A stretch of 64,000 bases of DNA. It comes from Bizionia myxarmorum. Lineage in GTDB: Bacteria; Bacteroidota; Bacteroidia; Flavobacteriales; Flavobacteriaceae. The stretch is from assembly GCF_008086205.1 (NCBI RefSeq), contig NZ_VSKK01000001.1, positions 1,736,001-1,800,000 on the forward strand, written 5' to 3'. Shown here one piece after another: positions 7,132-61,144 of the stretch; the stretch's first letter is position 1; each line of letters starts with the position of its first letter. The translations under genes were made by a program, and so were the position numbers. Below the pieces are notes generated by a model. That model saw only the letters and a list, made by a program, of their open reading frames with translations. It made no database searches and had not been told where the DNA came from.

Positions 7132-8703
7132 ATGAGCAAAAAGCTATTTATTATACTGGTATTATTAATGAGTTTGTCTCTTGTTGGTATCATATTTGTT
7201 CAAGCTTATTATATCAATAACTCGATTGAAAACGAGGAAGATCAGTTCAATTTTAATGTAAAAAAAGCATTGAGTTTTGCGTCTCGCCAAATTGAAGAGC
7301 GCGAAATGTTTAGTTATTATAATAGATACCAAACGCTCGTTGATGAGAAAAAACAAGCCGATACCGTTGCCATTTCAAAACTGTTTATAGTATCGCAAAT
7401 TAATGATACCAATGAAACGTTTATTTATAGAAGTGGTATTTTAGAAGAAAACCATAAATTATCTTCGTCGCTCTTTGACATCGGTTTAGATAGCTTAAAT
7501 ATACAGCGTATAATTAGTAGTTCGGAAGCTAAAGTGTTTAGCAACCAATCATCTCTTGATAATGAATTAAGTCCAAATCCCGTTTTAAGTTTATTAAAAA
7601 CAGGACGGTTAACAGCTGCAGAACGTATTAGTTTTGATGAAGCTTTTAAAATGTTAGGAAGCAGAATTCCTATTCATAAAAGAGTTGGTCCTGCACAAAT
7701 TGAAAAATTACTCTCCAAGAAATTGAAGGATGATAATATTGATTTGGATTACGAATTTGCCATTTACAGTAATGATTTGGCCACCAAAATACAAAGCGAC
7801 AACTTTGAGTTAGTGAAAGGAACTTTTAGTATTCCTATTTTTTCAAACGAATTGGATAAAAATAATTATCGTTTAATGGTTAATTTTCCAAAACGAAATA
7901 AGTTCATTCAGTCCACTATTATTCGGATGACTTTATTGTCCATTATTTTTACATCCATCATTATTATAGCGTATTCTAGTGCTTTATTGCAACTTTTCAG
8001 ACAACGTAAAATTTCTGAAATTAAGTCAGACTTTATCAACAACATGACCCACGAGTTTAAAACACCTATTGCCACCATTAATTTGGCTTTAGATGCAATT
8101 AAAAATCCGAAAGTTATTGATGATAAGGAACGCGTAGCACGTTACTTGCAAATGATTCGTGATGAAAATAAACGCATGCATGCACAGGTGGAAAATGTAT
8201 TGAGAATATCTAAACTTGAAAAAAACGAATTGAATATTAGTAAAGATCGTGTAGATCTTCACGAGTTAATTGAAGATGCTATTGCGCATATTGAATTAAT
8301 AGTGGAAGACCGTAAAGGTTATATGCGCACACATTTAAATGCCGAAAAATGTTCGGTATTGGCTAATGAAACGCATTTTATTAATGTAATTGTAAATATT
8401 CTGGATAATGCTGTAAAGTATTCACCAGAAAACCCAAAAATTGATATCTATACCGAAAATGTTGGTAATAATATCCTTTTAAAAATTAAAGATCAAGGAA
8501 GCGGAATGGGGAAAGCCGCTCAAAAACAGGTGTTCGAAAAATTTTATAGAGAACATACCGGAAATATACATAATGTAAAAGGACATGGTTTAGGTCTAGC
8601 TTACGTAAAACGTATGGTTGAGGATCACCAAGGACACATTTCCGTAGAAAGTGAAAAAGACAAAGGAAGTACATTTATTATAAAACTTCCATTAATATCA
8701 TAA
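7132..8703 (+). CDS. Two-component sensor histidine kinase (RprX-like)
   Basis: A 523-residue membrane kinase. A transmembrane segment at about 5-27 and another at about 264-288 enclose a roughly 235-residue periplasmic sensor domain with no family I recognise. The HisKA domain carries the phospho-accepting His307 in NNMTHEFKTPIATI, and the HATPase domain has an N box (NILDNAVKYS), G1 (KDQGSGMG) and G2 (GHGLGLAYVKRM). The response-regulator gene starts five bases after its stop, so the two form a pair. The arrangement and H-box sequence resemble Bacteroides RprX. The stimulus is unknown. Confidence 0.92.
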   Translation: MSKKLFIILVLLMSLSLVGIIFVQAYYINNSIENEEDQFNFNVKKALSFASRQIEEREMFSYYNRYQTLVDEKKQADTVAISKLFIVSQINDTNETFIYRSGILEENHKLSSSLFDIGLDSLNIQRIISSSEAKVFSNQSSLDNELSPNPVLSLLKTGRLTAAERISFDEAFKMLGSRIPIHKRVGPAQIEKLLSKKLKDDNIDLDYEFAIYSNDLATKIQSDNFELVKGTFSIPIFSNELDKNNYRLMVNFPKRNKFIQSTIIRMTLLSIIFTSIIIIAYSSALLQLFRQRKISEIKSDFINNMTHEFKTPIATINLALDAIKNPKVIDDKERVARYLQMIRDENKRMHAQVENVLRISKLEKNELNISKDRVDLHELIEDAIAHIELIVEDRKGYMRTHLNAEKCSVLANETHFINVIVNILDNAVKYSPENPKIDIYTENVGNNILLKIKDQGSGMGKAAQKQVFEKFYREHTGNIHNVKGHGLGLAYVKRMVEDHQGHISVESEKDKGSTFIIKLPLIS

Positions 8704-8708
8704 ATGCT

Positions 8709-9425
8709 ATGACAGAACAAAACAAAAAAATATTATTGGTAGAAGATGATCCAAATTTTGGAACCATTTTGAAAGATTATTTAATGATGAACGATTATGA
8801 TGTTGTTCATGCTAAAAACGGTATGGAAGGTTTCGAGAAGTTCAAAAAAGATGATTTCGATTTGTGTATTTTAGATGTCATGATGCCTTATAAGGACGGA
8901 TTTACTTTAGCTAAAGAAATTCGTGAGAAAAATGCAGAAGTGCCAATCGTTTTCTTAACGGCCAAAGCCATGAAAGAAGATGTTTTAAAAGGATACAAAG
9001 TAGGAGCAGACGACTATTTAAACAAGCCTTTTGATAGTGAAGTTTTATTAATGAAAATCAAAGCCATTATGCAGCGTAAAGCTACAGAAACGGTTGCTGA
9101 TAGTAAACAATTTCAGTTTACAATTGGTGGATTTGAATTAAATTCCAAGCTGCGTTTTTTAGTCTATAATGGTGGCGAACAAATTAAATTATCTCCAAAA
9201 GAAAACGAACTTTTACGTTTATTGGCTTTGCATGAAAATGATTTAATGCCACGTGAACTAGCTTTAACTAAAATATGGCGCGATGATAACTATTTTACAT
9301 CTAGAAGTATGGATGTATATATTGCGAAATTACGTAAGTATTTAAAGTTGGATCCTAAAGTTGAAATTTTAAATATTCACGGTGAAGGTTTTAGATTAGT
9401 AGTGAATACCGAAACAGACGATTAA
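8709..9425 (+). CDS. OmpR-family response regulator (RprY-like)
   Basis: A 238-residue DNA-binding response regulator, partner of the kinase directly upstream. The receiver domain (residues 1-120) has the acidic pair in VEDD, the phosphorylated Asp56 in LDVMMP and Lys in NKPF near 108. The C-terminal winged helix (about 140-235) includes KLSPKENELLRLLA and SRSMDVYIAKLRKYL, typical of OmpR/PhoB proteins. Target genes cannot be inferred. A bidirectional terminator closes the operon against the convergent miaA. Confidence 0.94.
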   Translation: MTEQNKKILLVEDDPNFGTILKDYLMMNDYDVVHAKNGMEGFEKFKKDDFDLCILDVMMPYKDGFTLAKEIREKNAEVPIVFLTAKAMKEDVLKGYKVGADDYLNKPFDSEVLLMKIKAIMQRKATETVADSKQFQFTIGGFELNSKLRFLVYNGGEQIKLSPKENELLRLLALHENDLMPRELALTKIWRDDNYFTSRSMDVYIAKLRKYLKLDPKVEILNIHGEGFRLVVNTETDD

Positions 9426-9440
9426 TCAGAATTTTTTATA

Positions 9441-9470
9441 AAAAAAGACCAGCTGAAAAGCTGGTTTTTT
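9441..9470. terminator. Bidirectional terminator between response regulator and miaA
   Basis: ACCAGCT (9448-9454) pairs with AGCTGGT (9459-9465) around a GAAA loop, flanked by an A run on the left and a T run on the right. It serves two convergent genes. Confidence 0.85.
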
Positions 9471-10381
9471 TAGGCCTTAATTTGAGATTCTAGGGCTTTT
9501 ATTATGGTTTTAATGTCTGTTTCAAAATCAAACCAAAGTGTTTCTTCATTTCGTTTAAACCAAGTGAGTTGCCGCTTCGCAAAACGTCTACTATTTTTTT
9601 TAATTTCTGAAACAGCAAACTCTAAAGTCCATTCACCAGACAAGTATTTAAAAATTTCTTTATAACCAACCGTATTTAGGGCGTTTAAGGGAGAATTATT
9701 TTTAAGATGTTCAACTTCCTTTACCAAACCTTCGGCCACCATCATATCCACACGCTGGTTGATACGGTTATAAATTTTTTCCCGATCGGCTGTTAAACCA
9801 ATCGTAATGGTTTTAAAAGGTCTTGATATTTTAGATTTTTTTAAAAAAGACGAATAGGGTTTTCCGGTTCCTAAACAAATTTCTAAAGCGCGAATTACGC
9901 GTTTTGGATTATCTATTGCTATGTTTTTGAAACTAGATGGATCTAATTTTTTTAACTGCGTTTGAAGCGCTTGTAAACCTTGGGATTCTAATTGGGCATT
10001 GAGCGTTTCCCGTATAGTTGGATTAACTTTAGGAAAGTCGTCTAGACCTCTAGTTACAGCATCTACATATAAACCCGAGCCACCAACCATAATAATAACA
10101 TCCTTTTCATGAAACAAATTGGTTAATACATCCATAGCATCTTTTTCAAAAGAGCCAACGCTATAATCGTCAAGAATTGATTTATGATGAATAAAATGAT
10201 GTTTCGCTGCCAATAGTTCCTCTGATGTTGGCGCAGCCGTTCCAATTTGCATTTCCTTAAAGAACTGTCGGGAATCTGCCGAAATTATTTCGGTTTCAAA
10301 ATAATTGGCCAATTTAATGCTCAAAGCGGTTTTTCCTATAGCGGTAGGACCAACAATAGAAATAAGAAAATTTTCTGACAT
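9470..10381 (-). CDS. miaA: tRNA dimethylallyltransferase
   Basis: Adds a dimethylallyl group to A37 of tRNAs that read codons beginning with U. With the start at 10381 the protein is 303 residues and begins MSENFLISIVGPTAIGKT, placing the P-loop at about residues 11-18. A longer reading frame to 10453 exists but would add 24 residues overlapping the channel gene and unlike the family. The conserved ISADSRQ (DSRQ) and TAAPT motifs follow, with KRQLTWFKRN near the C terminus. The start lies about 16 bases after the stop of the channel gene, so the two are probably co-transcribed. Confidence 0.95.
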   Translation of the reverse strand: MSENFLISIVGPTAIGKTALSIKLANYFETEIISADSRQFFKEMQIGTAAPTSEELLAAKHHFIHHKSILDDYSVGSFEKDAMDVLTNLFHEKDVIIMVGGSGLYVDAVTRGLDDFPKVNPTIRETLNAQLESQGLQALQTQLKKLDPSSFKNIAIDNPKRVIRALEICLGTGKPYSSFLKKSKISRPFKTITIGLTADREKIYNRINQRVDMMVAEGLVKEVEHLKNNSPLNALNTVGYKEIFKYLSGEWTLEFAVSEIKKNSRRFAKRQLTWFKRNEETLWFDFETDIKTIIKALESQIKA

Positions 10382-11335: not shown

Positions 11336-12703
11336 TTAGTTATCGAATTTTATAATCTTTATTTTTTTATTTTTTCTTAAATAACTTTGAATAATATGCT
11401 GCGCATCGCGGTTATTTTCCATGGGTGTAATAATGGATTGCAATACTTCCATGTTAGTAATTTGATAATTAAGATTAAAAAAACCAAACCCTTTAAATAA
11501 TCCGTGTTCTATTAATACGGCACTGCGTTCATCTATTTCGCGTGCGCGATCAATAATCACCATATTCTGGTTATTATAGGTGTTTTTTTCTATTAATTGT
11601 AAAACTCGTTTATTATAATCTTCTGGTGCTTCTTCTTGAATACAAGCACCTAAACATTGTTTAATATCATAATTAAAGCAACTTGTTTTTGTGGGATATA
11701 AACCTGTTAGTTTCTGACATAATTGAAATTCTTCAACCGCATTAAATAAAAAACTTTTGGCACTTTGTCTATTAGTAAAAGTCGTTATAGGTTTTTTACG
11801 ACCATCTGCTTTTTCAATTATTAAATTAATATAACCATTTTCATCTGTAAATGAATACAAGGCATGCGTGAAAATATTACGACGTAATTTCCGATTAAAA
11901 ATTGGTTTAAGACGCTTTATCTCTTCGCTTTCTTTTAATAAAGCCACTAACTCACTACCGGTGTGTTCATAGGTCACAGCGGCAGCATCCCGTTGTAGTT
12001 TTTTAGATTTAGTTTCGTTGTTGGTAAAGTGTTGGCTAATTCTATTTTTTATATTATTACTTTTTCCAATATAAATAATTTCACCATCGGCATTATGAAT
12101 ATAATAAACACCAGTAGCATGCGGCAATTCTTTAATAATGTTTCTTAAGTTGGTTGCAATTTCTTTTTTAGCTTCTATTTGAATCGTGTCCTTAACAATT
12201 CCTTTTTCCAAATCTTTAGAAAGTAGCATTTTAAAAAGCTTTACCGTTGCCATAGCATCTCCGTTGGCACGATGTCTATCGCTTACAGGGATTCCTAATG
12301 AGCGCGCTAATTTTCCTAAACTATAAGAATCTTGACCAGGAATTAATTTTTTGGATAGCTCTACCGTACACAGTGTTTTTCGCTTAAAAGGAAAACCGAG
12401 ACGGTTGAATTCCGTTTTTAAAATACGATAGTCAAATTGCGAATTATGAGCTACAATAATACAGTCTTCAGTCATTTCAACGATGCGTTTCGCTACCTCG
12501 TAAAATTTAGGTGCTGTTTGAAGCATCTTGCTATTAATACCCGTTAAATTCACTACAAATGGCTGAATATCGCGTTCAGGATTAACCAAACTAATAAATT
12601 GATCCACGACCTTATGGCCATCAAATTTATAAATTGCTATTTCAGTAATACCTTCTTCGTTGTATTTACCGCCAGTGGTTTCTATGTCGAGAATTGCGTA
12701 AAT
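11336..12703 (-). CDS. DEDD 3'-5' exonuclease fused to UvrC-type GIY-YIG nuclease domain; probable ATT start
   Basis: A fusion with a DnaQ-like exonuclease (about residues 1-170) and a GIY-YIG domain resembling the UvrC N terminus (about 195-275), followed by an uncharacterised region with several cysteines (SCFNYDIKQCLGAC). The first ATG/GTG/TTG start in frame is a GTG at 12607, but that would cut off the catalytic DIETTGG motif. The frame stays open upstream to a TAA at 12725-12727 and encodes YAILDIETTGGKYNEEG before the GTG. The only start-like codon there is ATT at 12703, exactly where related proteins begin. I therefore place the start at ATT, giving 455 residues. Exo II (HNSQFDYRIL) and Exo III (HRANGDAMATVKLF) motifs are intact. 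The role is probably in DNA repair. Confidence 0.85.
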   Translation of the reverse strand: MYAILDIETTGGKYNEEGITEIAIYKFDGHKVVDQFISLVNPERDIQPFVVNLTGINSKMLQTAPKFYEVAKRIVEMTEDCIIVAHNSQFDYRILKTEFNRLGFPFKRKTLCTVELSKKLIPGQDSYSLGKLARSLGIPVSDRHRANGDAMATVKLFKMLLSKDLEKGIVKDTIQIEAKKEIATNLRNIIKELPHATGVYYIHNADGEIIYIGKSNNIKNRISQHFTNNETKSKKLQRDAAAVTYEHTGSELVALLKESEEIKRLKPIFNRKLRRNIFTHALYSFTDENGYINLIIEKADGRKKPITTFTNRQSAKSFLFNAVEEFQLCQKLTGLYPTKTSCFNYDIKQCLGACIQEEAPEDYNKRVLQLIEKNTYNNQNMVIIDRAREIDERSAVLIEHGLFKGFGFFNLNYQITNMEVLQSIITPMENNRDAQHIIQSYLRKNKKIKIIKFDN

Positions 12704-12766
12704 AAGTGTGCTATTATTTGATTGTTATTAAGTTGAAATTATACAGATTAAAGTCTTTGGTGACTT

Positions 12767-13423
12767 TTAATAATTTCGTTCGCCAAAGATACTACTTCCT
12801 ACGCGAATCATATTACTTCCGCAGTTTATTGCCAATTCATAATCGCCACTCATACCCATGGAAATAATTTCTAAATGGTTATTAATGGTTTTCAGTTCAT
12901 CAAAAACAGATTTTAATCTATTGAATTCGGCGGTCACTTGAACTTCATCATCCGTAAAAGTTGCCATGCCCATAACACCCGTGATTTTCACGTTTTGGAG
13001 TTGTTTGAAGGCTTCGGATTGCAACATGGTAATAGCATCAGTTTTTGCCATTCCGAATTTTGAATCTTCCTCGGCAATTTTTATTTGAATTAGGCAATCT
13101 ATGACGCGTGATTCTTTTTCAGCCTCTTTATTTATTTCTTTAAGAAGTTTAAAGCTATCTACACCATGTATTAAACTCACAAAGGGCGCCATGTATTTCA
13201 CTTTGTTTCGCTGTACATGCCCTATCATATGCCAAGAAATATCTTTAGGAAGAGACGCGTGCTTATCCACCATTTCTTGGATTTTATTTTCACCAAAAAT
13301 GCGCTGACCCGCATTATAGGCTTCCATAAGATCACTTTCAGGCTTGGTTTTAGAAACTGCCACTAAGGTAACGTTTTCTGGAATTGAAGCTTTTATAGAC
13401 TCTAAATTTTGTTTAATAGACAT
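12767..13423 (-). CDS. YggS-family pyridoxal phosphate homeostasis protein
   Basis: A 218-residue single-domain TIM-barrel PLP-binding protein of the YggS/PROSC family, which buffers free pyridoxal phosphate. The cofactor lysine is in LVAVSKTKP (about residue 25), and GENKIQEM, HMIGHVQRNK and the phosphate-binding SMGMSGDYELAI and NMIRVGSSIFG follow in family order. The adjacent gene upstream (secreted protein, start 14330) ends seven bases before its start, suggesting co-transcription from the DUF1015 gene down to here. Confidence 0.95.
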   Translation of the reverse strand: MSIKQNLESIKASIPENVTLVAVSKTKPESDLMEAYNAGQRIFGENKIQEMVDKHASLPKDISWHMIGHVQRNKVKYMAPFVSLIHGVDSFKLLKEINKEAEKESRVIDCLIQIKIAEEDSKFGMAKTDAITMLQSEAFKQLQNVKITGVMGMATFTDDEVQVTAEFNRLKSVFDELKTINNHLEIISMGMSGDYELAINCGSNMIRVGSSIFGERNY

Positions 13424-50595: not shown

Positions 50596-51396
50596 ATGTT
50601 CCCCAAATTATTTGATTTTTCATTACCTGATTTTTTCTCAAACCTTTTTGGAATTGAGCAAGTTACCATTTTCACCTATGCCGTTTTAATTGCTTTAGGA
50701 TCGTTGTTTGCTGGACTTTATACCAAATGGAGGGCTAAAAAAGAATTGGGTATAAAAAACCTTCCGAGTACATTTTTCTACATGATTTTTATAGCTGGTT
50801 TTGTAGGTGGAAAATTATTTTTCTATTTACAAGATCCATTATTATATATTCAAAAACCAAGCTTGCTTTTAGATAATTTTTCTGGAGGCTTTGTTTTTTA
50901 TGGTTCTTTCATTGTCATTATCCCATACATTATTTGGTATTTAAAAAAGCATGACATTTCAGTTTTGCCTATGCTAGATATTTTTGCCATTACAACCACC
51001 ATTGTTCACGCTATAGGTCGTTTGGGCTGCTTTTCAGCTGGTTGTTGTTATGGTTCGCCAACAGAAAGTGACTTTGGAATAATATTTCCAACAACTAATA
51101 ACATAGTAGTTCATCCCACGCAATTATATGAAAGTACGATGTTAATTGGTATAATGATCATTTTGTTAATAATCAAAAAGCATCAACAATTTAAAGGGCA
51201 ATTATTCCTAATTTATTTAATCCTTTATGCATTTGGAAGAGGCATTTTAGAACTTTTCAGAGGGGACGAACGCGGCTTTATAATCAATGATATTTTATCG
51301 CATTCCCAATTTATAGGCTTATGTCTAATATTAGTGGCCACCTATTTCTATTATAGATTTTTTAATCAAAGTAATTTACAAATAACTAAAACTTAA
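50596..51396 (+). CDS. Prolipoprotein diacylglyceryl transferase family protein (divergent Lgt)
   Basis: Lgt transfers diacylglycerol to the lipobox cysteine of prolipoproteins at the inner membrane, the first step of lipoprotein maturation. The 266-residue protein has about seven hydrophobic segments. The Lgt-type motif HAIGRLGCFSAGCCYG lies at 138-153, HPTQLYES at 173-180 and GRGILELFRGDERG at 214-227, in family order; the GCFSAGCC variant differs from the GNFxN form of canonical Lgt and marks a divergent branch frequent in Bacteroidota. It is followed within five bases by a lipoprotein gene and then by further lipoprotein genes, which suggests a shared operon. Confidence 0.85.
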   Translation: MFPKLFDFSLPDFFSNLFGIEQVTIFTYAVLIALGSLFAGLYTKWRAKKELGIKNLPSTFFYMIFIAGFVGGKLFFYLQDPLLYIQKPSLLLDNFSGGFVFYGSFIVIIPYIIWYLKKHDISVLPMLDIFAITTTIVHAIGRLGCFSAGCCYGSPTESDFGIIFPTTNNIVVHPTQLYESTMLIGIMIILLIIKKHQQFKGQLFLIYLILYAFGRGILELFRGDERGFIINDILSHSQFIGLCLILVATYFYYRFFNQSNLQITKT

Positions 51397-51400
51397 CACC

Positions 51401-52096
51401 ATGAAAAAACGATTTTTAAAAACAATTTTACCAATTATGTTATTGATAACTGCTGTATTTTTAATAGGTTCAGGATGTGGTAATCCTGATCCTATTTACG
51501 ATCAATATAATTTTTGGCCAGATATAGATCAAGATGGCTTTGGTGATGCTAGCGTAAATGGAACCTTTTATTCTATAGCTGGTGCACCAGCTAACTACGT
51601 AAGGGATTATTCAGATTGTGATGATACTAATATAGCTGTCAATCCGGATGCTATAGAAGTTCCAGATAACGAAATTGACGAAAACTGTAATGGTTTATTC
51701 GGCATAACGTTCTATAAAGATTCAGATAATGATGGCTTTGGAGACCCAAATTCGGGTTCTGAGTATGAATTGAATTTTGGAGATCCTGCTCCAGACGGAA
51801 TGGTTTATAATGATGCGGATTGTGATGATACGAATGATATGATAAATCCGTTAGCCGATGAAGTTGTTGGGAATGGTATAGATGATAATTGTGATGGAGA
51901 TATAGACATTGTAGAATATTACAAAGACGCAGATGGCGATGGTTATGGAGCAGGTAGTGCGCTGCCACCACCAGCAACGGGTGTTAATAATAACCTAGAC
52001 TGTGATGATAATAATCCAAACGTTCATCCCTATGCTATGGAAGTAGAAAATGGTATTGATGATGATTGTGATGGTATAATAGATGAAATTATTTAA
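51401..52096 (+). CDS. Lipoprotein with MopE-type Asp/Cys metal-binding repeats
   Basis: A 231-residue predicted lipoprotein (lipobox LIGSGC near residue 26). The mature part has three repeats of a motif in which DxDxDGxGD (DIDQDGFGD, DSDNDGFGD, DADGDGYGA) is followed by DCDDTNxxxNPxAxEVxxxxID(E/D)NCNG. This is the putative metal-binding MopE domain (PF11617), in which paired cysteines and acidic residues could bind calcium or copper. It starts five bases after lgt. A fragment of a second copy lies further downstream at 52672. Confidence 0.82.
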   Translation: MKKRFLKTILPIMLLITAVFLIGSGCGNPDPIYDQYNFWPDIDQDGFGDASVNGTFYSIAGAPANYVRDYSDCDDTNIAVNPDAIEVPDNEIDENCNGLFGITFYKDSDNDGFGDPNSGSEYELNFGDPAPDGMVYNDADCDDTNDMINPLADEVVGNGIDDNCDGDIDIVEYYKDADGDGYGAGSALPPPATGVNNNLDCDDNNPNVHPYAMEVENGIDDDCDGIIDEII

Positions 52097-52123
52097 AAAA
52101 ACAGTCTAAAAAACAAGATTCAA

Positions 52124-52154
52124 AGGTAACAATTTTGAAGGTATTGTATATAAG
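52124..52154. repeat. 31-bp direct repeat, copy 1
   Basis: AGGTAACAATTTTGAAGG followed by TATTGTATATAAG, repeated exactly at 52823. It lies 28 bases after the MopE-type stop. Confidence 0.92.
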
Positions 52155-52199
52155 GTTGACTAATTGGTCCAGCTTGAAATACTAACTTATTAAAAAGAA

Positions 52200-52652
52200 A
52201 TGATTATGAAAATAATAATGAAAACTCTAATTATATCAGTCTTTTCGTTAGTGCTTTTTAATTGCGATAATGATGACGGCGACCCAATTACATCACCTAA
52301 TGAAAACGTTTGTGGCTATCAAGGGCTTACAGCTCTAATAAATACTACGCATACATTAATTCCTGAAGCAGAATTACAAACCGATTATTTCCCCAATAAT
52401 TATGGACCTAATCAACCAGCAGTGGAGGTCTTTTACACTATTAACCCAGGAACTTTTATAGTAACTAGAGCTCTTACTTTAGGCGCTATGGATTCTAGTC
52501 CACAAATCAGAATAAATGGAACGGATTATCCTGGTGTAATTACTTGTCAAAGAGCAGGAAGTGCAGTAGGGGATGAGTTAAGGTTTGATATACTTCTAAC
52601 TAATGGATACGAGGCTGAATTATGTGTAATCATTGATGATGTAAATCCTTAA
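52200..52652 (+). CDS. Small lipoprotein, family A, copy 1 (function unknown)
   Basis: A 150-residue predicted lipoprotein with lipobox VLFNC at Cys22, then an acidic stretch DNDDGDPITS. The rest shows the family pattern shared with the products at 53981 and 56577: VCGYQGLT, TLIPEAEL, then VITCQRAGSAVGDELRFD and ELCVIIDDV at the end. The four cysteines (lipid, VCGYQG, ITCQR, ELCV) are conserved. I do not recognise the domain. It follows the MopE-type gene and is separated from the next intact gene by a MopE-type fragment. Confidence 0.78.
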   Translation: MIMKIIMKTLIISVFSLVLFNCDNDDGDPITSPNENVCGYQGLTALINTTHTLIPEAELQTDYFPNNYGPNQPAVEVFYTINPGTFIVTRALTLGAMDSSPQIRINGTDYPGVITCQRAGSAVGDELRFDILLTNGYEAELCVIIDDVNP

Positions 52653-52671
52653 AATGGAATTCAACCGCTTA

Positions 52672-52780
52672 AATGAAATTCAAATGTTTGAAATCTGTAA
52701 CGGACTTTTTGGGATTACGCTGTATATAGATTCAGATAACTATGGTCTTGGAGATTAAAGATCCGATTCTGTTATGAAGA
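52672..52780 (+). pseudogene. Fragment of a second MopE-type gene
   Basis: In frame from 52672 it reads NEIQMFEICNGLFGITLYIDSDNYGLGD and then TAA. The intact MopE-type gene has NEIDENCNGLFGITFYKDSDNDGFGDP at residues near 87-113. DNA similarity continues over about 20 bases beyond the stop (TCCGATTCTGTTATGAA against TCGGGTTCTGAGTATGAA). It starts 17 bases after copy 1 of the family A gene, with no start codon, lipobox or repeats 1 and 3. Confidence 0.8.
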
Positions 52781-52822
52781 AATATAGAAAATGATCTTAT
52801 CATAAATAAAAAACCAATTCAT

Positions 52823-52853
52823 AGGTAACAATTTTGAAGGTATTGTATATAAG
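52823..52853. repeat. 31-bp direct repeat, copy 2
   Basis: Identical to 52124-52154. Each copy follows a MopE-type sequence, so the repeat marks the end of a duplicated unit. Confidence 0.92.
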
Positions 52854-52891
52854 TATGACAATCATGTCTAAACTATAAATAACTTAAATCA

Positions 52892-53947
52892 ATGATTATG
52901 AAAACATCCAAGAAAATTCAAACCTCAATATTTCTCACTTTAATGTTTTCATTGTTATTTGGATGCAGTGATAATAGCTCTTCAGATCCTTCGGGAAGTA
53001 CGACAACGCCTCAATATGCCTATATAACAGATGGAAATGATTTAAAAATAATTGATGTGGCTGTACCAACCGCTCCAACATTTGTTAGTACCATAGCGAT
53101 TAATACATCTTATTTTGTAAGTGTATCTCCTGGTGTTGCTTATGTTGCGCAATATGATGCTACCGCTCCATACTTGAGCTTGGTGGATATAAGTAATGCT
53201 GCTTCACCATCAATCTCAATAGCGATTCCTAAAGACAATTCACTTGCCTTTAGTTTGTTAAGTGATATGTACACGGTAAATAATGTGGGCTATCTTACAG
53301 ATGTTTATCGCGGGTTGCACGTAGTAGATTTAGCTAATTTCAATTTTAGTTCTCAAGTTAATTTGGGCGGGGACGCTATGAGTTTAACAAAAGTACAAAA
53401 CGAACTATTTGTTATAGATCAGGCCATGGGGTTACATACATATAACGTTACAACTCCAGAAACTCCGGTAGCCACAGGAATATTTAATAATACAGAAATT
53501 GATGTGTCTTCTTATGGTGATGCACCTTATGGACAATACCATAGTTGGGTTGAAAACGATGGTACATCTATTTTTGTAGCTAATACTATTGATAAAAAAA
53601 TTAAACAATTTGATGCAGCAACACTAACACTAATGAATGAAGTGTCAATAGAAGGCTATCCAACGGCTTTTGCTATTTACAATGGTAACGCTTATGTAAC
53701 TATGAAAGCTAGTGCAAATGCACCTTTGCAAACTAGTTATGATGGTATTAGAATGTACGATTTAGCAACTTTGTCCTTAGTTGATATGAAACCATTAAAC
53801 CTTGCCAGCGGCATAGCATTACATAATGATTACGCCTATGTTACAGATGCAGATGGACTGCATATTTACAATATAAATGGAAACAATTTTGTTTTAGAAT
53901 CTACCTTAACTGCAGGTTTCGGAAATTTTATAGCTCTTGGGCAATAA
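52892..53947 (+). CDS. LVIVD-repeat lipoprotein
   Basis: A 351-residue predicted lipoprotein (lipobox LLFGC at about Cys25, then SDNSSSDPSGS). The mature part is an LVIVD-repeat propeller-like region, each unit carrying YVxDxxxLxIIDV-type strands (YAYITDGNDLKIIDV, LSLVDISNAASPSIS, GLHVVDLANF, YVTDADGLHIYNINGN). The last 270 residues align with the C-terminal part of the product at 55133, so the two are paralogues. Propellers of this type usually bind partners or ligands; none can be named. Confidence 0.8.
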   Translation: MIMKTSKKIQTSIFLTLMFSLLFGCSDNSSSDPSGSTTTPQYAYITDGNDLKIIDVAVPTAPTFVSTIAINTSYFVSVSPGVAYVAQYDATAPYLSLVDISNAASPSISIAIPKDNSLAFSLLSDMYTVNNVGYLTDVYRGLHVVDLANFNFSSQVNLGGDAMSLTKVQNELFVIDQAMGLHTYNVTTPETPVATGIFNNTEIDVSSYGDAPYGQYHSWVENDGTSIFVANTIDKKIKQFDAATLTLMNEVSIEGYPTAFAIYNGNAYVTMKASANAPLQTSYDGIRMYDLATLSLVDMKPLNLASGIALHNDYAYVTDADGLHIYNINGNNFVLESTLTAGFGNFIALGQ

Positions 53948-53980
53948 TTAATAATAACAATAATTTTAAAAAAAAATATT

Positions 53981-54421
53981 ATGAAAACAACAATGAAAAC
54001 CCTAATTCTACTAGTTTTTACACTAGCTCTTTTTAACTGTGATAATGATGACGGCGATCCAATTACATCACCTAATGAAGATGTTTGTAACTTCCAAGGT
54101 TTAACTTTTTTAGATACAGGTGATAACACCCAAACTTTAATTCCTGACTCGGAACTAACAACTGATTTTTTCTATACATCATCAAATGGCCCCGAAGTTG
54201 AAATTTATGATACAGCTAACCCTGGAGATTTCTGGTTTGTAACAGAAGTAGTTGAAGCAAATGCGTCTGGAGTTGGACGTTTAAACATTGGAGGTACCAT
54301 TCACAATGTAAACGTTACTTGTCAACGCACAGGAAGTGCTGTTAATGAAGAAATGCGCTTTGACGTAACTGCTAACGGTCTTGAAGCTGAATTTTGTGTT
54401 AGAATTAATGAATACCATTAA
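53981..54421 (+). CDS. Small lipoprotein, family A, copy 2 (function unknown)
   Basis: A 146-residue predicted lipoprotein (lipobox ALFNC, Cys20) with the same DNDDGDPITSPNE stretch as copy 1, then VCNFQGLTFL, TLIPDSEL, NVTCQRTGSAVNEEMRFDV and EFCVRINEY. DNA near the start is very like copy 1 (GATAATGATGACGGCGA in both), which suggests recent duplication. The coding frame lies 33 bases after the LVIVD gene, and the next gene starts eight bases later. Confidence 0.8.
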   Translation: MKTTMKTLILLVFTLALFNCDNDDGDPITSPNEDVCNFQGLTFLDTGDNTQTLIPDSELTTDFFYTSSNGPEVEIYDTANPGDFWFVTEVVEANASGVGRLNIGGTIHNVNVTCQRTGSAVNEEMRFDVTANGLEAEFCVRINEYH

Positions 54422-54429
54422 ATAAACTC

Positions 54430-55119
54430 ATGAAAAATATAAAAACACTTTTAATACTATTGGCAGTAACAGCATTTAGTTGTGATAGTAATGATGATGC
54501 TGTTACGCCTGATCCTGTAGATCCAACAATTACTCAGGATGGATTTACATATCATCAAGACAATACGAGCCCTACTTTTTATGAAACCTCCAATGCTTAC
54601 ATCGAAATTGATATCGATGACAATGATGCCTATCCAAGTGTTCCAGATTATTACACATTCTTTTTTTTAAACGGAAGAATGTATGACAACGATACAAACA
54701 TAAATGGTACCACCGATGAGGTTTTACTATCGGTAAATACAACACAATTTGTTGCCCTTAGTATTGAGGTTTCCGTTAACTCTAGTTTAAATACTGGGCT
54801 TCCGCCATCGGCGGGAAATACATATATAGCTTCTGCTAACGATTCTAATGTAGTTATAGACTTACAAGTAGATTCATCTATACCACAAACATTTCTAAAT
54901 GTAGGCAGTTCTAATATAGAATTTGGAGAAGGGAATGAGCAAAATAGTACGGTATTTCAACCAGCTTCAATGGGCCATTCTGTTACTATAAACGCTATGA
55001 ATTTAGATACCGTAAACCCTACAAACAGTACGATAAATGTCGATTACACGTTTGTAAACGCTGCAGGTGAATTAATTTCAGGACATTATCAAGGTACTTT
55101 AGGCGTAATTGAAGATTAA
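54430..55119 (+). CDS. Lipoprotein of unknown function
   Basis: A 229-residue predicted lipoprotein (lipobox AVTAFSC, Cys18) with acidic residues after the cysteine (DSNDDA). The mature part is beta rich with DGFTYHQDNTSPTFYETSNAYIEIDIDDND and DYTFVNAAGELISGHYQGTL, in the style of small Bacteroidota surface domains. I do not recognise it. It sits between family A copy 2 and the fused LVIVD gene, with gaps of 8 and 13 bases, so it is in the same likely operon. Confidence 0.75.
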   Translation: MKNIKTLLILLAVTAFSCDSNDDAVTPDPVDPTITQDGFTYHQDNTSPTFYETSNAYIEIDIDDNDAYPSVPDYYTFFFLNGRMYDNDTNINGTTDEVLLSVNTTQFVALSIEVSVNSSLNTGLPPSAGNTYIASANDSNVVIDLQVDSSIPQTFLNVGSSNIEFGEGNEQNSTVFQPASMGHSVTINAMNLDTVNPTNSTINVDYTFVNAAGELISGHYQGTLGVIED

Positions 55120-55132
55120 TAATATATATAAT

Positions 55133-56575
55133 ATGAAAAATATACAGATAGTTTTATTTATACTTTTTGCAACCTTTTATGGTTGCAGTGATCAGAATGG
55201 TGAAGGACACTACAAAGACCACCCTTGTGAGGTTGGAGATCAAGGGGTGCATATAAATGAAAGCGATGTAATAAATGAAGCGAATTTACTTTTTGATGAT
55301 TCGAGGATGGTTATTCAATACGTAACAGGACATCCAGATGGCGATTATTTACATATGTACAGTATGGGTGTTAGTCCCGTAATGGACTTATATACCTTTG
55401 CTATAAATGCAGGAGACACTTCTACTTTAGACCAGAATTTTAATGTTACTGCGGGAAGCTATTTGGCAATAGATGGAACGCCTTACCCTCAAAACAATAA
55501 TGTAGTATTAAATACCATTATTGGCGGGTCGCAAGTTGGGGACGCAGTGAAAATGGATTTTGAAGGAGATTATGACCCATGGGATGATGGTGCCTTTCGG
55601 GTGGTTGGTGATTTATGTGTAACCATTGATGAGGTTGTTAGTTATAATGAGTTCGTTTATATCACAGATGGTACAAACCTTAAAGTTGTAGATGTTACAA
55701 ATCCTTTATCTCCTTCTTTAGCGACAAACGTAAGTTTACCTTCAAGTCATTATGTTAAAGTTATCAACAAGAGTGTTGCTATAGTAGGACAAACAGATGC
55801 TACAGAACCTTATTTAAACACCATAAATATAACTAATCCTGAAAGTAGTTATGTAGCGGCTACAACATCAAAAAGTACCTCCAATACTATTTTAACAGAT
55901 GCTATTAAGTTGGATAATAAAGTGGTGTTAACAGACCAACATTCTAGAAATAAATTGTTTGTAACGGCTTCTAATGAGATGGAAGAAATTGGAGACGCTC
56001 ATGGTGGTTTTTGTGTTACAAACATGAATAACGATTATTTAGTTTTATTAGACGGTTTAGGCGCGTCCGCTTATAAGATTGGTTATAATTTTAATCTTAC
56101 ATTTCCTTTCTTACCAAGCAACGTTTATGTTCTTTGGACAACTTTAGTAGGAAATAGGTTTGATAGAATTGAAAATGATGGGCAGTATGCTTATTTAGCT
56201 AACGTGGAAGGTCAAAAACTTGTAAAGTTAGAAGTCAATGCTTCAGCTATTAATCAATTAAGCGTGTTAAATATTGGCGGGCATCCATCTGCTTTAGAAA
56301 TCTATAATAATTATGCATTTATAACGATGTCTCCAACCTTAACAGCGCCATATAATGCCGGTTTTGATGGTATTAAAATGATTGATTTAAGCACCATGCA
56401 GGTTATTGATAGTGTTGTGCTAACGAACGCAAGTGGTATAGTTGTCAAAGGAATTTACGCCTATGTAACCGATGGAAACGGTTTGCACATTTATGATATT
56501 AGTGCAGGAAATTTGGATTTAATATCAACATTCAACCAAGGATATGGTAATTATATATCCCTTTTAAACTATTAA
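55133..56575 (+). CDS. Lipoprotein: probable family A-like domain fused to LVIVD repeats
   Basis: A 480-residue predicted lipoprotein; the start at 55133 gives MKNIQIVLFILFATFYGC. Residues of about 25-185 contain a divergent domain that ends VGDLCVTIDEV, like the CVIIDEV end of family A, and has QVGDAVKMDFEGDYDPWDDG where family A has AVGDELRFD. From about 190 the LVIVD region follows (FVYITDGTNLKVVDVTNPLSPSLA), aligning with the standalone product at 52892 to its end (GLHIYDISAGNLDLISTFNQGYGNYISLL). It shows that the two standalone families are parts that can be joined. Function unknown. Confidence 0.75.
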   Translation: MKNIQIVLFILFATFYGCSDQNGEGHYKDHPCEVGDQGVHINESDVINEANLLFDDSRMVIQYVTGHPDGDYLHMYSMGVSPVMDLYTFAINAGDTSTLDQNFNVTAGSYLAIDGTPYPQNNNVVLNTIIGGSQVGDAVKMDFEGDYDPWDDGAFRVVGDLCVTIDEVVSYNEFVYITDGTNLKVVDVTNPLSPSLATNVSLPSSHYVKVINKSVAIVGQTDATEPYLNTINITNPESSYVAATTSKSTSNTILTDAIKLDNKVVLTDQHSRNKLFVTASNEMEEIGDAHGGFCVTNMNNDYLVLLDGLGASAYKIGYNFNLTFPFLPSNVYVLWTTLVGNRFDRIENDGQYAYLANVEGQKLVKLEVNASAINQLSVLNIGGHPSALEIYNNYAFITMSPTLTAPYNAGFDGIKMIDLSTMQVIDSVVLTNASGIVVKGIYAYVTDGNGLHIYDISAGNLDLISTFNQGYGNYISLLNY

Positions 56576-56576
56576 G

Positions 56577-57023
56577 ATGAAAAACATATACTTTTTAATT
56601 ATTTTACTTTGCACAGTTACATCATGCAACAACGATGATGATGTTAACAACGATGCAACTAATGAAGCGCAATGTAACTATCAAGGTTTTTCATATCTCG
56701 ATAATGCAAATAACGATCAAACGGTAATTCCGGAAAGCGAACTGAATACGCAGTATTTTCCAAATGCAAGCAACGGGCCGTATGGTGAACCAGGAATAGA
56801 AATTGCATCATACACAAGTTCGCCATCCTTGTTTTTTACAACGAACGTTATAGAATTAAATGAAACGGGAACAGGAAGACTTACATTGGACGGAGGAGAC
56901 GAAATTATAGTAAATGTCATATGTCAACGCGCAGGAACAGCTTTTGGAGATGAGGTAAGATTAGATGTTACTTATGGCGGTGTGGAAGTGGAGTTTTGCG
57001 TAATTATAGACGAGGTTTTATAA
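56577..57023 (+). CDS. Small lipoprotein, family A, copy 3 (function unknown)
   Basis: A 148-residue predicted lipoprotein (lipobox TVTSC, Cys17) with an acidic NNDDDVNNDATNE after the cysteine, QCNYQGFSYLDNANNDQTVIPESELNTQYF, NVICQRAGTAFGDEVRLDV and EFCVIIDEV at the end. It is the most divergent of the three standalone copies in its first 30 residues but clearly the same family. It begins one base after the stop of the fused gene, so coupling is tight. Confidence 0.8.
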   Translation: MKNIYFLIILLCTVTSCNNDDDVNNDATNEAQCNYQGFSYLDNANNDQTVIPESELNTQYFPNASNGPYGEPGIEIASYTSSPSLFFTTNVIELNETGTGRLTLDGGDEIIVNVICQRAGTAFGDEVRLDVTYGGVEVEFCVIIDEVL

Positions 57024-57033
57024 ATAATTTAGT

Positions 57034-57351
57034 ATGAAAATCAAATTAAAGTATTTAGTTTTTTCCGTTACATTACTACTTTTCAATTGTAAAAATGACA
57101 GCAATAATCAAGTACAAGAAAGTAGCATGGAAATGGCTCCAAATAAGCAATTAAGTGAAGCTGAAAAAACTGAAATCGTCACTTATTATCTTATTAACAA
57201 AAGACAATTAGAAGAAAAGGATTTTCATAAAATTATTTTTTTAAATGATATTTCAGATTCTGTAAAAGTCATTCATTATGAAGGAAAAGACGCTTTTTTT
57301 AGCTTCAAATTTTCTGAAGCATTAAGCTTTTATTACTCTAATAGAAAATAG
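57034..57351 (+). CDS. Small lipoprotein of unknown function
   Basis: A 105-residue predicted lipoprotein (lipobox TLLLFNC, about Cys19, followed by KNDSNN). The mature part is short and mostly charged (SEAEKTEIVTYYLINKRQLEEKDFHKIIFLND), ending in FSFKFSEALSFYYSNRK. I do not recognise it. It starts 10 bases after family A copy 3 and closes the lipoprotein cluster. Confidence 0.65.
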   Translation: MKIKLKYLVFSVTLLLFNCKNDSNNQVQESSMEMAPNKQLSEAEKTEIVTYYLINKRQLEEKDFHKIIFLNDISDSVKVIHYEGKDAFFSFKFSEALSFYYSNRK

Positions 57352-57462
57352 AACCTTAAATTAAAATCACCGGAATTTTAACCGTACTAAAGTCTAAAAT
57401 AAATAGAGTTTCAAAATCATTACTTTTGTAAAAATCAATTCCAATATATCTATTGAAACATA

Positions 57463-57518
57463 AAAAACGTCCTATCTTAATAGTATCCAAATTAATAGGG
57501 TGTTTTTTTTCTGTTTTA
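57463..57518 (+). terminator. Possible terminator of the lipoprotein cluster
   Basis: An A-rich arm AAAAAACGTCCTAT at about 57463-57476 pairs imperfectly with ATAGGGTGTTTTTT at about 57496-57510 around a 19-base loop, followed by T residues. Two mismatches or wobbles weaken it. It lies between the small lipoprotein and the kinase gene. Confidence 0.4.
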
Positions 57519-57536
57519 AATATTTTCCCCAAAAAT

Positions 57537-60395
57537 TTGGGACAAATAACAGAAAAGAAATATCTCTCGTATGCATTTCTTTTTATAAGTACTATTTCTT
57601 TCTCGCAGCAATACACAAATTATACCACAAAAGATGGGTTGCCCAGTAACCATGTGTATAAAGTAGCTCAAGATTTTAAAGGTTTTTTATGGTTTGCTAC
57701 AGATAAAGGCTTGGTAAAATATAATGGCAATACCATGAAAACTTTTACCACAAGAGATGGTTTGGCAACCAATGATGTTTGGGACATGTATCCAACGCCA
57801 GATGGTAAATTGTGGTATCTCTCCAAAGCTTCTAAGTTAGGATACATTGAAAATGATAGTGTTTATGCTTTTGAGAGTGAGCAGAAAGGTGAGATTTTTA
57901 ATCCCATTTTTACAAGTCAAATTGGAAACGAAATTTTTTTAACTAGCTCTTCAAAATTTCATATATTAAAAGATAAAAAGTGGAAAACCCTTGAAAATTA
58001 TCCAATAAAAGGTTCTGTTCCGCACAGTTATATTAAACATCAATCTGTATCAAATTTTATAACAACGGCGAAATATGATTCCATAACAGTTCTAGACATC
58101 AATAATAAGGCCGTTAAAACCTTCGACTTTATAGATAGATTAGATAAAATTCATAAAAGAGGCCAAATTACAGATAGCCTATTTTTTTGGGTAGATGCAA
58201 AAAAATATGCAATTTTTAATTTAAACACCTTACAATTATATAAACGTGATTTTAGTAATGAAATAGGATTAGATGATGCTAATCATGCACGGATTAATTT
58301 AGTTAATAACGATTTACAAATTTCCGGAAAAGGATTTATTGGTTTATTGGACTCAAATTTCCATATGTCCAAAACATTTTACATTCCTGAACATTTGGAT
58401 GCGCATTTTGGTTTTATGGATAGCTCTGGTGGTATTTGGTTAACCACTTTTACAGATGGCATATACTATTTACCTATAGAAAAACAAAATATTACCTATT
58501 GCTTAGCTTCCGAGAAAATCACCAGCATAAGTCATGTTAATAATAAAATTATTGCAAATGTTTTTAATAAAGGATTCTATAAGTATAACGATTCTACCAG
58601 CACATTTTCACCATTTATAAAGGAAGATGAATATGTTTACGGTTCAAGCTACATTGAAGCATTACAAACAGAATATTACCTGTCTGAATCAAATATTACA
58701 GCTTTAAAAAATAATAAAGCGGAGCATTTCAGTTTTTTAGAACAAAAGTTTTCTGTCAATGATAAAGCGCGTCAATTGGTGTTCTATAATAATGCTTTGT
58801 ACGGTGCATATTCTATTGGTATTAATAGAATAAACCCCTCTAGTTTTGAAGTTGAAGCGGTTTATCAGCAAAGTGCCATTAATCAATTATTCATTTTTAA
58901 TAATCAATTTCTTGGCGCTACAGCCAATGGATTAATGCATTTTAAAGACGATAAATTTAATGCATTTGATTTTAATAATCAACAGTTTAATAAACCTGTT
59001 TTAAGTATCACAAAACTTTCCAATTCTGAAATTTTAATAAATACAGATGGTTTTGGTACGTATATTTCAGATTTAAAAACTATTAAGTTGTTGCCAGATT
59101 CCGATTTTCTAATTGTGAATAATGCTTTTATTGAAGGTAATAATATTTGGTTGGCAACAGAGTCCGGTATTATAAAATATAAAAAGCGCAAGGAAAAATA
59201 CAAGTTACAATTGTATATTACTGTTAATAATGGGTTGCCATCTAATCATGTAACAGATGTTATTATTAAGGGGAATAAGCTTATAGCAAGCACTGACAAT
59301 GGTATTGCTGTTTTGCCTAAAAACCAGAAAGCATCAACGCAATTATTAGATATTTATATAGAGGAAGCTTTTTACAATGGCCTTGATATTTTTGCTAGTA
59401 ATTCGGAATTTGAATATGAAAGCAGCAATAATGTACATATAAAAATTTCTAATATTAACTTTTCTGAAAATCAGAAAGATATATCTTATAGTTATAAATT
59501 AGAACCCATTCATAAAGAATGGAGCCAGACAACTACTAACAATCTTAATTTCAACAATCTTCAACCAGATAAATACACCTTGTTTATAGATGCTAGTGGT
59601 ATAAATAAACAATTACGTTTTACTATAAAGCCTTTGCTGTGGCAGAAGCTATGGTTTCAAATTTCGGTATTATTATTAGGTATTTTAATTGTGGTACTCA
59701 TTTCTCGATATATTGTAAAACGTTCACAATTTCAGAAGAATCAGAAAATATTTGAAGATAAACGCTTGTCGGAATTGCAATTAAAAGCCTTACGATCTCA
59801 AATGAATCCGCATTTTGTGTTTAATTCCTTATCGGCCATTCAATATTATATCGGTGAAAATAATTTTGAAGCTTCCGAAATGTATTTAGTGAAATTTTCT
59901 AAACTCATTCGTCAATTTTTTGAGCTTTCAAAAGAAAACGAAATATCCTTGGCAAAGGAAGTCGGCTTACTTCAAAACTATCTAGAAATTGAGAAACTAC
60001 GCTTTAAAGAAAAACTAAATTTTGAAATTAATGTAGATTCCAATTTGGATTCCAAAAACACCAAAATTCCAACCATGTTATTGCAACCCATTGTTGAAAA
60101 CGCGGTGAATCATGGTATTTTTAATAAAATGGAAAATGGTTTGGTAACTATAAACTTCACCTATTTTGACGCGCAAACTTTTATGGTAGAAATAATTGAT
60201 GATGGCGTTGGCTTTGTAAATACCAAAAAGCGCATGACTGGAAAAGTAAAATCTTCTAATGTTTTAAAGGATAGATTGCATTTTTTAAATCATTCTAAAA
60301 AATGGGAAATCGGGTATAAGCGCGAAGAATTACATGCAGACAAGGAAGATAAAGGGAATAAATCGGTATTTTTAATTAAGCATAATATAAAATGA
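57537..60395 (+). CDS. Propeller sensor histidine kinase (LytS type)
   Basis: A large membrane sensor kinase. A TTG start at 57537 gives 952 residues with a signal peptide cleaved before Gln (STISFS|QQYTNY); a TTG at 57453 is also possible. The extracellular part (about 25-690) has two-component-regulator propeller repeats (YTTKDGLPSNHVYKVAQDFKGFLWFATDKGLVKYNG, ITVNNGLPSNHVTDVII) ending in a Y_Y_Y domain (ISYSYKLEPIHKEWSQT). A transmembrane helix follows near 705-725, then the LytS-type kinase with His759 in QMNPHFVFNSLSAI and an ATPase domain. Its regulator overlaps by four bases. Confidence 0.9.
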   Translation: MGQITEKKYLSYAFLFISTISFSQQYTNYTTKDGLPSNHVYKVAQDFKGFLWFATDKGLVKYNGNTMKTFTTRDGLATNDVWDMYPTPDGKLWYLSKASKLGYIENDSVYAFESEQKGEIFNPIFTSQIGNEIFLTSSSKFHILKDKKWKTLENYPIKGSVPHSYIKHQSVSNFITTAKYDSITVLDINNKAVKTFDFIDRLDKIHKRGQITDSLFFWVDAKKYAIFNLNTLQLYKRDFSNEIGLDDANHARINLVNNDLQISGKGFIGLLDSNFHMSKTFYIPEHLDAHFGFMDSSGGIWLTTFTDGIYYLPIEKQNITYCLASEKITSISHVNNKIIANVFNKGFYKYNDSTSTFSPFIKEDEYVYGSSYIEALQTEYYLSESNITALKNNKAEHFSFLEQKFSVNDKARQLVFYNNALYGAYSIGINRINPSSFEVEAVYQQSAINQLFIFNNQFLGATANGLMHFKDDKFNAFDFNNQQFNKPVLSITKLSNSEILINTDGFGTYISDLKTIKLLPDSDFLIVNNAFIEGNNIWLATESGIIKYKKRKEKYKLQLYITVNNGLPSNHVTDVIIKGNKLIASTDNGIAVLPKNQKASTQLLDIYIEEAFYNGLDIFASNSEFEYESSNNVHIKISNINFSENQKDISYSYKLEPIHKEWSQTTTNNLNFNNLQPDKYTLFIDASGINKQLRFTIKPLLWQKLWFQISVLLLGILIVVLISRYIVKRSQFQKNQKIFEDKRLSELQLKALRSQMNPHFVFNSLSAIQYYIGENNFEASEMYLVKFSKLIRQFFELSKENEISLAKEVGLLQNYLEIEKLRFKEKLNFEINVDSNLDSKNTKIPTMLLQPIVENAVNHGIFNKMENGLVTINFTYFDAQTFMVEIIDDGVGFVNTKKRMTGKVKSSNVLKDRLHFLNHSKKWEIGYKREELHADKEDKGNKSVFLIKHNIK

Positions 60396-61144
60396 AAAAC
60401 ATAACCGCCATTTTGGTAGATGATGAGGTTTCAAACTTAAAAAGTTTACAGAAAAAGATTGAAAGTTTATTTCCGGAAATTCAAATTTTGGGAGCCTACC
60501 AGAAACCTGAAGATGCTATAGAGGCTATAGAAAAACAGGATATTAGCTTGTTGTTTCTAGATATTCAAATGCCACGAATTAATGGGTTTGAATTACTTTC
60601 AAAATTAAAGGACGTTAATTTTCAAGTGATTTTTGTAACGGCTCATAGCGAATATGCCTTGGATGCTTTTAAAAAATCAGCCATTGACTATGTTTTAAAA
60701 CCTATAGATAACGACGATTTAGTAGCTGCTGTAAATAAAGCTTTAGCTATAATAAAACTTCAGAAAGAAAGTTCAAGCAATTTAAAGTTGGTGAGTCTTT
60801 TAGAGGAGAATATTTCCAAAAACAATAAAATAATAATCCCAACACAAAAAGGAATTTCATTTATACCACAAGATGAGGTTTATCATTTAGAAGGTTATGA
60901 TGGGTACACCAAAATTCACATTACAACGGGTGAAACTATAATAAGTTCCTACAATTTAGGGAAATTTGAAAAGTTATTGAGTTCTAAATTTTTTAAATGC
61001 CATAAGTCGCATATTATAAATTTAGAAAAAGTAAGACATTTTGAAAACGAAGGCTATGTTGTTTTGGATAATGAATACCGCGTACCTATATCCAAAACAA
61101 ACAAAACGGCCTTTCTAAACCTGTTTACCTTTAAAACCTCCTAA
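60392..61144 (+). CDS. LytTR-family response regulator
   Basis: A 250-residue regulator that pairs with the propeller kinase; the ATG overlaps the kinase stop (ATGA). The receiver domain has ILVDDE near the start, phospho-acceptor Asp57 in LFLDIQMP and the FKKSAIDYVLKP lysine region. The LytTR DNA-binding domain spans about 145-248 (IIPTQKGISFIPQDEVYHLEGYDGYTKIHITTGETII ... FFKCHKSHIINLEKVRHF). Its last 30 bases overlap the end of the convergent glutamate-synthase-like gene. Targets are unknown; the lipoprotein cluster upstream is one possibility. Confidence 0.93.
   Translation: MKNITAILVDDEVSNLKSLQKKIESLFPEIQILGAYQKPEDAIEAIEKQDISLLFLDIQMPRINGFELLSKLKDVNFQVIFVTAHSEYALDAFKKSAIDYVLKPIDNDDLVAAVNKALAIIKLQKESSSNLKLVSLLEENISKNNKIIIPTQKGISFIPQDEVYHLEGYDGYTKIHITTGETIISSYNLGKFEKLLSSKFFKCHKSHIINLEKVRHFENEGYVVLDNEYRVPISKTNKTAFLNLFTFKTS

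Follow-up and report, generated by a model that had tools for sequence, protein, structure and literature searches.

In the genome of Bizionia myxarmorum (assembly G000, 3.36 Mb in 19 contigs), a divergent copy of the prolipoprotein diacylglyceryl transferase Lgt is followed directly by a gene whose product carries an unusual signal peptide, and the two genes are neighbours in almost all relatives that have this copy. The copy, for which we coin the label Lgt2, lies in a stretch of 64,000 nucleotides (contig NZ_VSKK01000001.1, positions 1,736,001 to 1,800,000), here called the window. On the basis of sequence comparisons we consider it probable that Lgt2 is a specialised Lgt paralogue with a preprolipoprotein of its own as dedicated substrate, which it would recognise by its signal peptide. 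The pairing suggests that enzyme and signal are made for each other, in place of one enzyme for all lipoproteins. A preliminary description of the window saw a divergent Lgt gene heading a cluster of lipoprotein genes, and this is borne out: lgt2 (50596-51396), with the signature GRLGCFSAGCCYG, is followed by lipoprotein-like genes on the same strand (Table 1).

Among 199 genomes of the family, the host included, 75 have some match to Lgt2 and five have a close one (at least 62% identity); within the genus, Lgt2 is found in four of six genomes. Scanning named genomes turned up 43 loci, of which 38 are close (55-79% identity) and five remote (L087-L091, 27-33% identity). The remote loci were left out of all counts, and the working set is thus the 38 close loci and the window, 39 in all. 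By their titles, the close loci come from Bizionia, Lacinutrix, Algibacter, Oceanihabitans, Xanthomarina, Kordia, Maribacter, Flavobacterium, Lutibacter, Polaribacter, Tenacibaculum and unclassified bins; one is titled as a 'Lentimicrobium' bin and may be misassigned.

The signal-bearing gene stands directly downstream of lgt2 in 37 of the 39 loci. In L078 a gene of another lipoprotein family (family A, below) intervenes and the signal gene is one further on, while in L066 the contig ends just behind lgt2, with a cut-off match to the signal profile there (G216). The gap between the two genes ranges from -20 to +36 bases over the 37 loci and is 4 bases in 16 of them, including the window, for which five had been given earlier.

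The signals of these 37 partners are strikingly uniform. From the initial Met to the Cys there are 26 residues in 30 of them (25 in three, 24 in two, 31 and 18 in one each), with Pro at -15 in 34, Leu at -12 in all 37, Leu at -11 in 34, Ala at -8 in 31 and Ile at -4 in 33. Gly is found at -3 in every one, or in 36 if the first Cys is taken by rule, and position -2 is Ser in 18, Pro in 14, Ala in three, Ile in one and Val in one. The signal can therefore be summarised as 26 residues with an 18-residue uncharged core and an atypical lipobox, I-G-[SP]-[GSA]-C. For comparison, a scripted rule, which demands 11 uncharged residues before the Cys and misses signals with Asn at -1, found 67 other lipoproteins in the loci. 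Gly at -3 is present in nine of these: one is the partner in L078 itself, six clearly have the same signal (L062, three in L067, L072 and L076) and two are looser (L068 and L082). The remaining 58 serve here as ordinary lipoproteins and thus lack Gly at -3 by construction. Their uncharged stretch before the Cys is 11-17 residues long (median 13), against 17-18 in 35 of the 37 partners. The published lipobox is [LV]-[ASTVI]-[GAS]-C (PMC8689077), from which the partner signals depart, having Gly at -3 throughout and Pro at -2 in 14; a looser PROSITE-like pattern is passed by 23 of the 37, compared with 53 of the 58 ordinary signals. In L084 (5790-5870) the beginning of the signal peptide is out of frame with the remainder of the gene, which may be an assembly error or real.

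What follows the signal is far less constant. The partner in the window contains Cu-binding_MopE repeats (PF11617) in three stretches, and metal binding is predicted. BLAST divides the mature parts of the 37 partners into groups of 29, 6 and 2. The members from L062, L067 and L075 fall in the group of 29 with no visible MopE repeats, being joined to it through L074, in which both parts occur; by Pfam, L074 contains MopE, and L062, L067, L063, L080 and L061 give no match. On a maximum-likelihood tree of the 39 Lgt2 proteins the kind of cargo changes at least six times. The signal, compared over its last 16 residues and with L067 counted as non-MopE, is nevertheless almost as similar between cargo kinds (identity 0.547, 322 pairs) as within them (0.571, 344 pairs), while ordinary signals nearby have an identity of 0.25 (58 signals, 1653 pairs). 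The signal is therefore homologous independently of its cargo. In 12 close loci Lgt2 has the lowest ratio of nonsynonymous to synonymous differences per site (pN/pS), 0.21, followed by the signal with 0.28 and the mature part with 0.42.

We scanned the 199 family genomes with a profile (A2) built from 22 signals, those of the window, L058 and L062 among them. It scores highest in the five Lgt2 genomes, each time at the lgt2 locus (E 9e-16 to 4e-6); none of the other 194 has a strong match, the best being partial (positions 1-20, E 0.0018). In the host genome the window signal is the only match at E<=1. Within the genus, the signal is present in all four genomes with Lgt2 and in neither of the two without, one of which is 88% complete. 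The profile matches at E<=0.01 in 35 of the 38 named Lgt2 genomes, the exceptions being those of L068, L077 and L086. G222, G226 and G217 have extra copies of the signal, all near lgt2 on its contig. There is no convincing copy away from the locus in the 38 genomes, the sole such match (G225) being weak and holding a stop.

Lgt2 belongs to the Lgt family according to Pfam, its nearest solved structure and its predicted fold, yet falls under the NCBIfam cut-offs. Its score with the Pfam LGT model is well above the curated cut-off of 24.9 (Table 1). The structure of E. coli Lgt (5azb/5azc) is the one solved structure matched by the sequence (phmmer E 1.1e-9), and 5azb is also the sole match at E<=0.001 of the fold predicted by AlphaFold2 (predicted local distance difference test score 78.7), with E 2.5e-8, a template modelling score of 0.64 and a root-mean-square deviation of 5.9; the next-best structure has E 0.81. 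Its scores with the seven NCBIfam Lgt models listed (six equivalog, one subfamily) all fall short of the curated cut-offs, for example TIGR00544 with 103.8 against 118.9. As the preliminary description had envisaged, a canonical lgt is present elsewhere in the genome, at C5:1472137-1472991, and its signature IRIGNFINSEIIG has the canonical N and E. In each of the 38 other Lgt2 genomes PF01790 likewise matches two or more times, and seven of them have a further weaker match (70-88 bits); the signature of the canonical copy was read in the host genome, and the other genomes were counted by PF01790 matches.

Residues were compared in an alignment of 35 rows, comprising 33 Lgt2 proteins and two relatives from another family, with E. 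coli equivalents transferred via the alignment of Lgt2 with E. coli Lgt and the published motif. Most of the catalytic residues are conserved. The equivalents of Y26, G99, G104, G142, R143, G145, G154, E202, Y235, R239, E243 and R246 are invariant in all 35 rows, and three positions are changed in all 35: H103 to Tyr, N146 to Cys and E151 to Cys. Six residues are reported as essential in E. coli Lgt (Y26, H103, R143, N146, G154 and R239; PMC13251419), and the rows thus keep four of them. Other Lgts have been reported with the H103Y and N146C changes too (PMC13251419 for N146C), and H103, arm-2 and the head domain have been linked to specificity for the protein substrate (Legood et al., 2026, PMC13251419). 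This pattern would be fitted best by an active enzyme with altered protein specificity.

The proposal to weigh is the following. Lgt2 is most likely an active S-diacylglyceryl transferase whose substrate is the lipoprotein encoded 4 bases downstream. Recognition of this substrate would depend on the features of the signal summarised above: the length to the Cys, the uncharged core, the Pro at -15, the Leu pair at -12 and -11, the Ala at -8 and the lipobox. The mature part would be exchangeable cargo, mostly of MopE-type metal-binding repeats. The other lipoproteins, including the remaining ones of this cluster, would be left to the ordinary Lgt.

Several points weigh against this. The H103Y change was found to inactivate E. 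coli Lgt (Mao et al., 2016, PMC4728403), and N149 has likewise been replaced, by Ala, Gly or Ser across the 35 rows. Co-occurrence alone is weak evidence, because adjacent genes are inherited together. The A2 profile has some match at E<=1 in 157 of the 199 genomes. Several of the matched genomes are themselves represented among its rows (the host, G093, G058 and G619), though not G168, G128, G618 or G620, so that the test chiefly shows absence in the other 194. The signals of L068, L077 and L086 are too divergent for the profile, though all still end G-P-x-C. Finally, the synonymous component (pS) in the 12 close loci is lower in the signal (0.45) than in the mature part (0.57) or Lgt2 (0.66), so part of the signal conservation may be at the DNA level.

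The adjacent protein might instead be a membrane partner, its 18-residue hydrophobic segment remaining uncleaved and binding Lgt2 as a subunit or regulator, with Lgt2 acting on other lipoproteins. The unusual length of the uncharged core is consistent with this, as is the fact that there is usually one copy of the signal per genome (more in G217, G222 and G226), and the departure of the lipobox from the consensus of PMC8689077 makes cleavage by signal peptidase II uncertain. We consider this arrangement unlikely, however, since the Cys and the Gly at -3 are near-invariant while the mature part varies, and since the same signal is found on other lipoproteins in L062, L067, L072 and L076, as expected of a substrate tag.

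The cluster in the window bears on how far the substrates of Lgt2 might extend. After the partner gene there are seven more open reading frames on the same strand with lipoprotein-like N-termini, in agreement with an earlier count of at least six. Most gaps among the eight genes are indeed below 60 bases, namely five of the seven if the start at 55133 is used; the other two are 103 and 239. All seven have short signals without the Lgt2-type features. Three of these end LFNC, with Asn at -1, and were missed by the scripted rule, which accepted the other four. The suggestion that Lgt2 is a dedicated copy placed beside its substrates thus holds in part: it has a fixed neighbour in relatives and looks dedicated, but only the first gene has the special signal. 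Family A, to which three of the seven belong, is enriched in Lgt2 genomes, being present in four of the five in the family, but is also found in four of the 194 genomes without Lgt2, none of which has a signal with Gly at -3, a long core or the Lgt2-type signal. One genome, G057 (94% complete, 8% contaminated, 670 contigs), has a cluster of family A, LVIVD-like (by eye) and kinase genes with neither lgt2 nor the special signal. These genes are therefore associated with the module, although it seems they can do without Lgt2. The whole cluster as substrates of Lgt2 was considered and rejected, because the special signal is absent from the other lipoproteins and Lgt2 is not always present where family A is.

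Table 1. Features of the lgt2 region; positions count from the first letter of the window.
Feature	Position	Strand	Evidence or occurrence
lgt2, divergent prolipoprotein diacylglyceryl transferase paralogue, 266 aa	50596..51396	+	signature GRLGCFSAGCCYG, FVFYGS; PF01790 171.6 bits
Probable dedicated lipoprotein, 231 aa: 26-aa Lgt2-type signal and MopE-type repeats	51401..52096	+	signal statistics; PF11617 86.8 bits
Lgt2-type signal peptide MKKRFLKTILPIMLLITAVFLIGSGC	51401..51478	+	profile A2 E 3.4e-15
Family A lipoprotein, short signal ending LFNC; associated gene, product unlikely to be an Lgt2 substrate	52200..52652	+	
LVIVD-repeat lipoprotein, ordinary lipobox	52892..53947	+	PF08309
Family A lipoprotein, short signal ending LFNC	53981..54421	+	
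Lipoprotein with ordinary lipobox	54430..55119	+	no Pfam match
LVIVD-repeat lipoprotein, ordinary lipobox	55133 (alternative start 55109)..56575	+	PF08309
Family A lipoprotein, ordinary lipobox	56577..57023	+	
Small lipoprotein, 105 aa, signal ending LFNC	57034..57351	+	relatives in 7/39 loci, window included
Reg_prop/Y_Y_Y/His_kinase sensor (propeller-type histidine kinase)	57453..60395	+	relative within 9 kb in 31/39 loci, window included
LytTR response regulator	60392..61144	+	relative within 9 kb in 23/39 loci, window included

A related idea is that Lgt2 stands in, under particular conditions, as a general Lgt for the lipoproteins of the cluster, the signal being kept only through the operon and gene conversion. 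The enrichment of family A in Lgt2 genomes, the short intergenic gaps and the low pS of the signal would all agree with it. The G057 cluster exists without lgt2, and Lgt2-type and ordinary signals remain distinct side by side; we regard such a role as improbable. It is more improbable again that Lgt2 puts a different lipid on the dedicated Cys: N146C and E151C lie within the signature and E151 of E. coli Lgt contacts the first phosphatidylglycerol site (PMC4728403), but the equivalents of R143, R239, Y235, E202 and R246 are invariant and other distant Lgts also show N146 to Cys and E151 to Cys or Asp (PMC13251419).

Beyond the close loci, two further GCCYG-type Lgts at 32-35% identity (G095 and G033) were seen among the 28 readable signatures of 30 fetched loci. 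In a search of 395 genomes of the phylum, which scored up to six candidates per genome, the next-closest Lgts belong to another family of the class (G374, G283 and G413, with 255-272 bits against 515 for the host copy), and still further ones to another class (G488 and G322, 167 bits). These seven distant C-type Lgts were tried as further pairs and rejected, as none has a strong signal match; four of the seven genomes have matches at chance level (best E 0.29), and the readable downstream genes (G095, G033 and G374) are not of the partner type. A plasmid collection gave 338 records with Lgt-like matches, all below 60% identity. Several open frames of about 600 aa were found among the Lgt2 matches in the family genomes. 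By eye, a 622-aa frame in L048 (4683-6551) has an Lgt-like membrane domain (KLGCLYNGCCYG) fused to a barrel-like C-terminal half, and a 624-aa frame in L047 (4301-6175, minus strand) has an N-terminal part resembling isoprenylcysteine/phospholipid methyltransferases and a C-terminal part that is Lgt-like (GRFRCLVNGCCHG).

Neighbouring genes were grouped by single linkage over the 39 loci, with a range of 9 kb for the kinase and LytTR genes; several of the contigs are short. As these two genes often accompany the pair (Table 1), the pair may be a regulated module. A promoter scan was uninformative (39 sites against 41.7 expected by chance). A membrane protein is found in nine loci (L050, at 11878-12807, L053, L057, L058, L063, L065, L076, L080 and L082), in seven of them directly behind the signal gene. 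The one from L050, which was the one tested by Pfam, is a CPBP/Rce1-like protease (PF02517, 26.3 bits against a cut-off of 22.4), and a membrane protease of this type could be an alternative processing enzyme. A dedicated signal peptidase II was also considered: the host genome has two LspA genes (C5:828709-829272 and C5:110750-111181), and the idea was dropped because all six genomes of the genus have two, including the two without Lgt2. In L050 a gene for a DUF7619 protein (8103-9995), which carries the Por_Secre_tail sorting tail of type IX secretion, ends 5 bases upstream of lgt2, and genes of similar appearance precede lgt2 in L052 and L059. No lit or copper genes were noticed on inspection of the gene groups present in at least four of the 39 loci, with no lit or copper model run on the neighbours.

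The surface-export signals of Bacteroidota are acidic. Residues +2 to +6 after the Cys contain fewer Asp and Glu in the partners (mean 1.1) than in the ordinary lipoproteins of the loci (1.9), and for this reason our guess is that the partner protein may remain at the inner face of the outer membrane.

Descriptions of Lgt usually present it as a general enzyme that lipidates the lipoproteins of the cell, and its way of recognising a protein substrate is described as an open question (PMC13251419). If the proposed specialisation of Lgt2 is true, bacteria are able to handle a single lipoprotein outside the general pathway, and the pair offers a ready enzyme and tag, with the ordinary Lgt in the same cell as a control, for mapping how Lgt recognises signal peptides. 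More tentatively, and with rather less confidence, the divergent Lgt and its matched signal may form a private maturation channel, insulated from the general Lgt pathway and carrying interchangeable cargo, in which the CPBP-type protease behind the pair may in some genomes replace signal peptidase II.

Compared with E. coli Lgt, Lgt2 is alike in Pfam family, fold and the equivalents of Y26, R143, G154, Y235, R239, E243 and R246, and differs in H103Y, N146C, E151C and N149A/G, in being a second genomic copy and in having a fixed partner with its own kind of signal. The lgt2-lit2 copper operon of Listeria and Enterococcus (PMC8275575) likewise contains a second lgt, there co-transcribed under regulation, and a link to metal is possible in both, through MopE in the present case. 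It differs in that its lgt2 travels with lit2 and copper-resistance determinants, and the account of it in PMC8275575, as far as it concerns these genes, mentions no dedicated signal peptide. The second Lgt of Mycobacterium smegmatis, MSMEG_5408, is also an N146C paralogue beside a major Lgt, but has Y26H as well and is presumed to be of low activity, and its description in PMC13251419 brings in no dedicated substrate. A lipidated peptide (PMC12636315) was considered as a precedent and set aside, since it is reported as belonging to the general Lgt pathway, with no paralogue. In a search of open-licence papers, no description of an Lgt paralogue paired with a signal peptide of its own came up.

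The closest parallels in organisation are at the other end of the protein. In the exosortase/PEP-CTERM, rhombosortase/GlyGly-CTERM and myxosortase systems, a dedicated processing enzyme acts together with a homologous C-terminal tag on unrelated cargo. The Lgt2 tag differs in being an N-terminal signal peptide and in usually having one carrier per genome. If the private channel exists, it would be the N-terminal counterpart of these C-terminal tag and sorting-enzyme systems.

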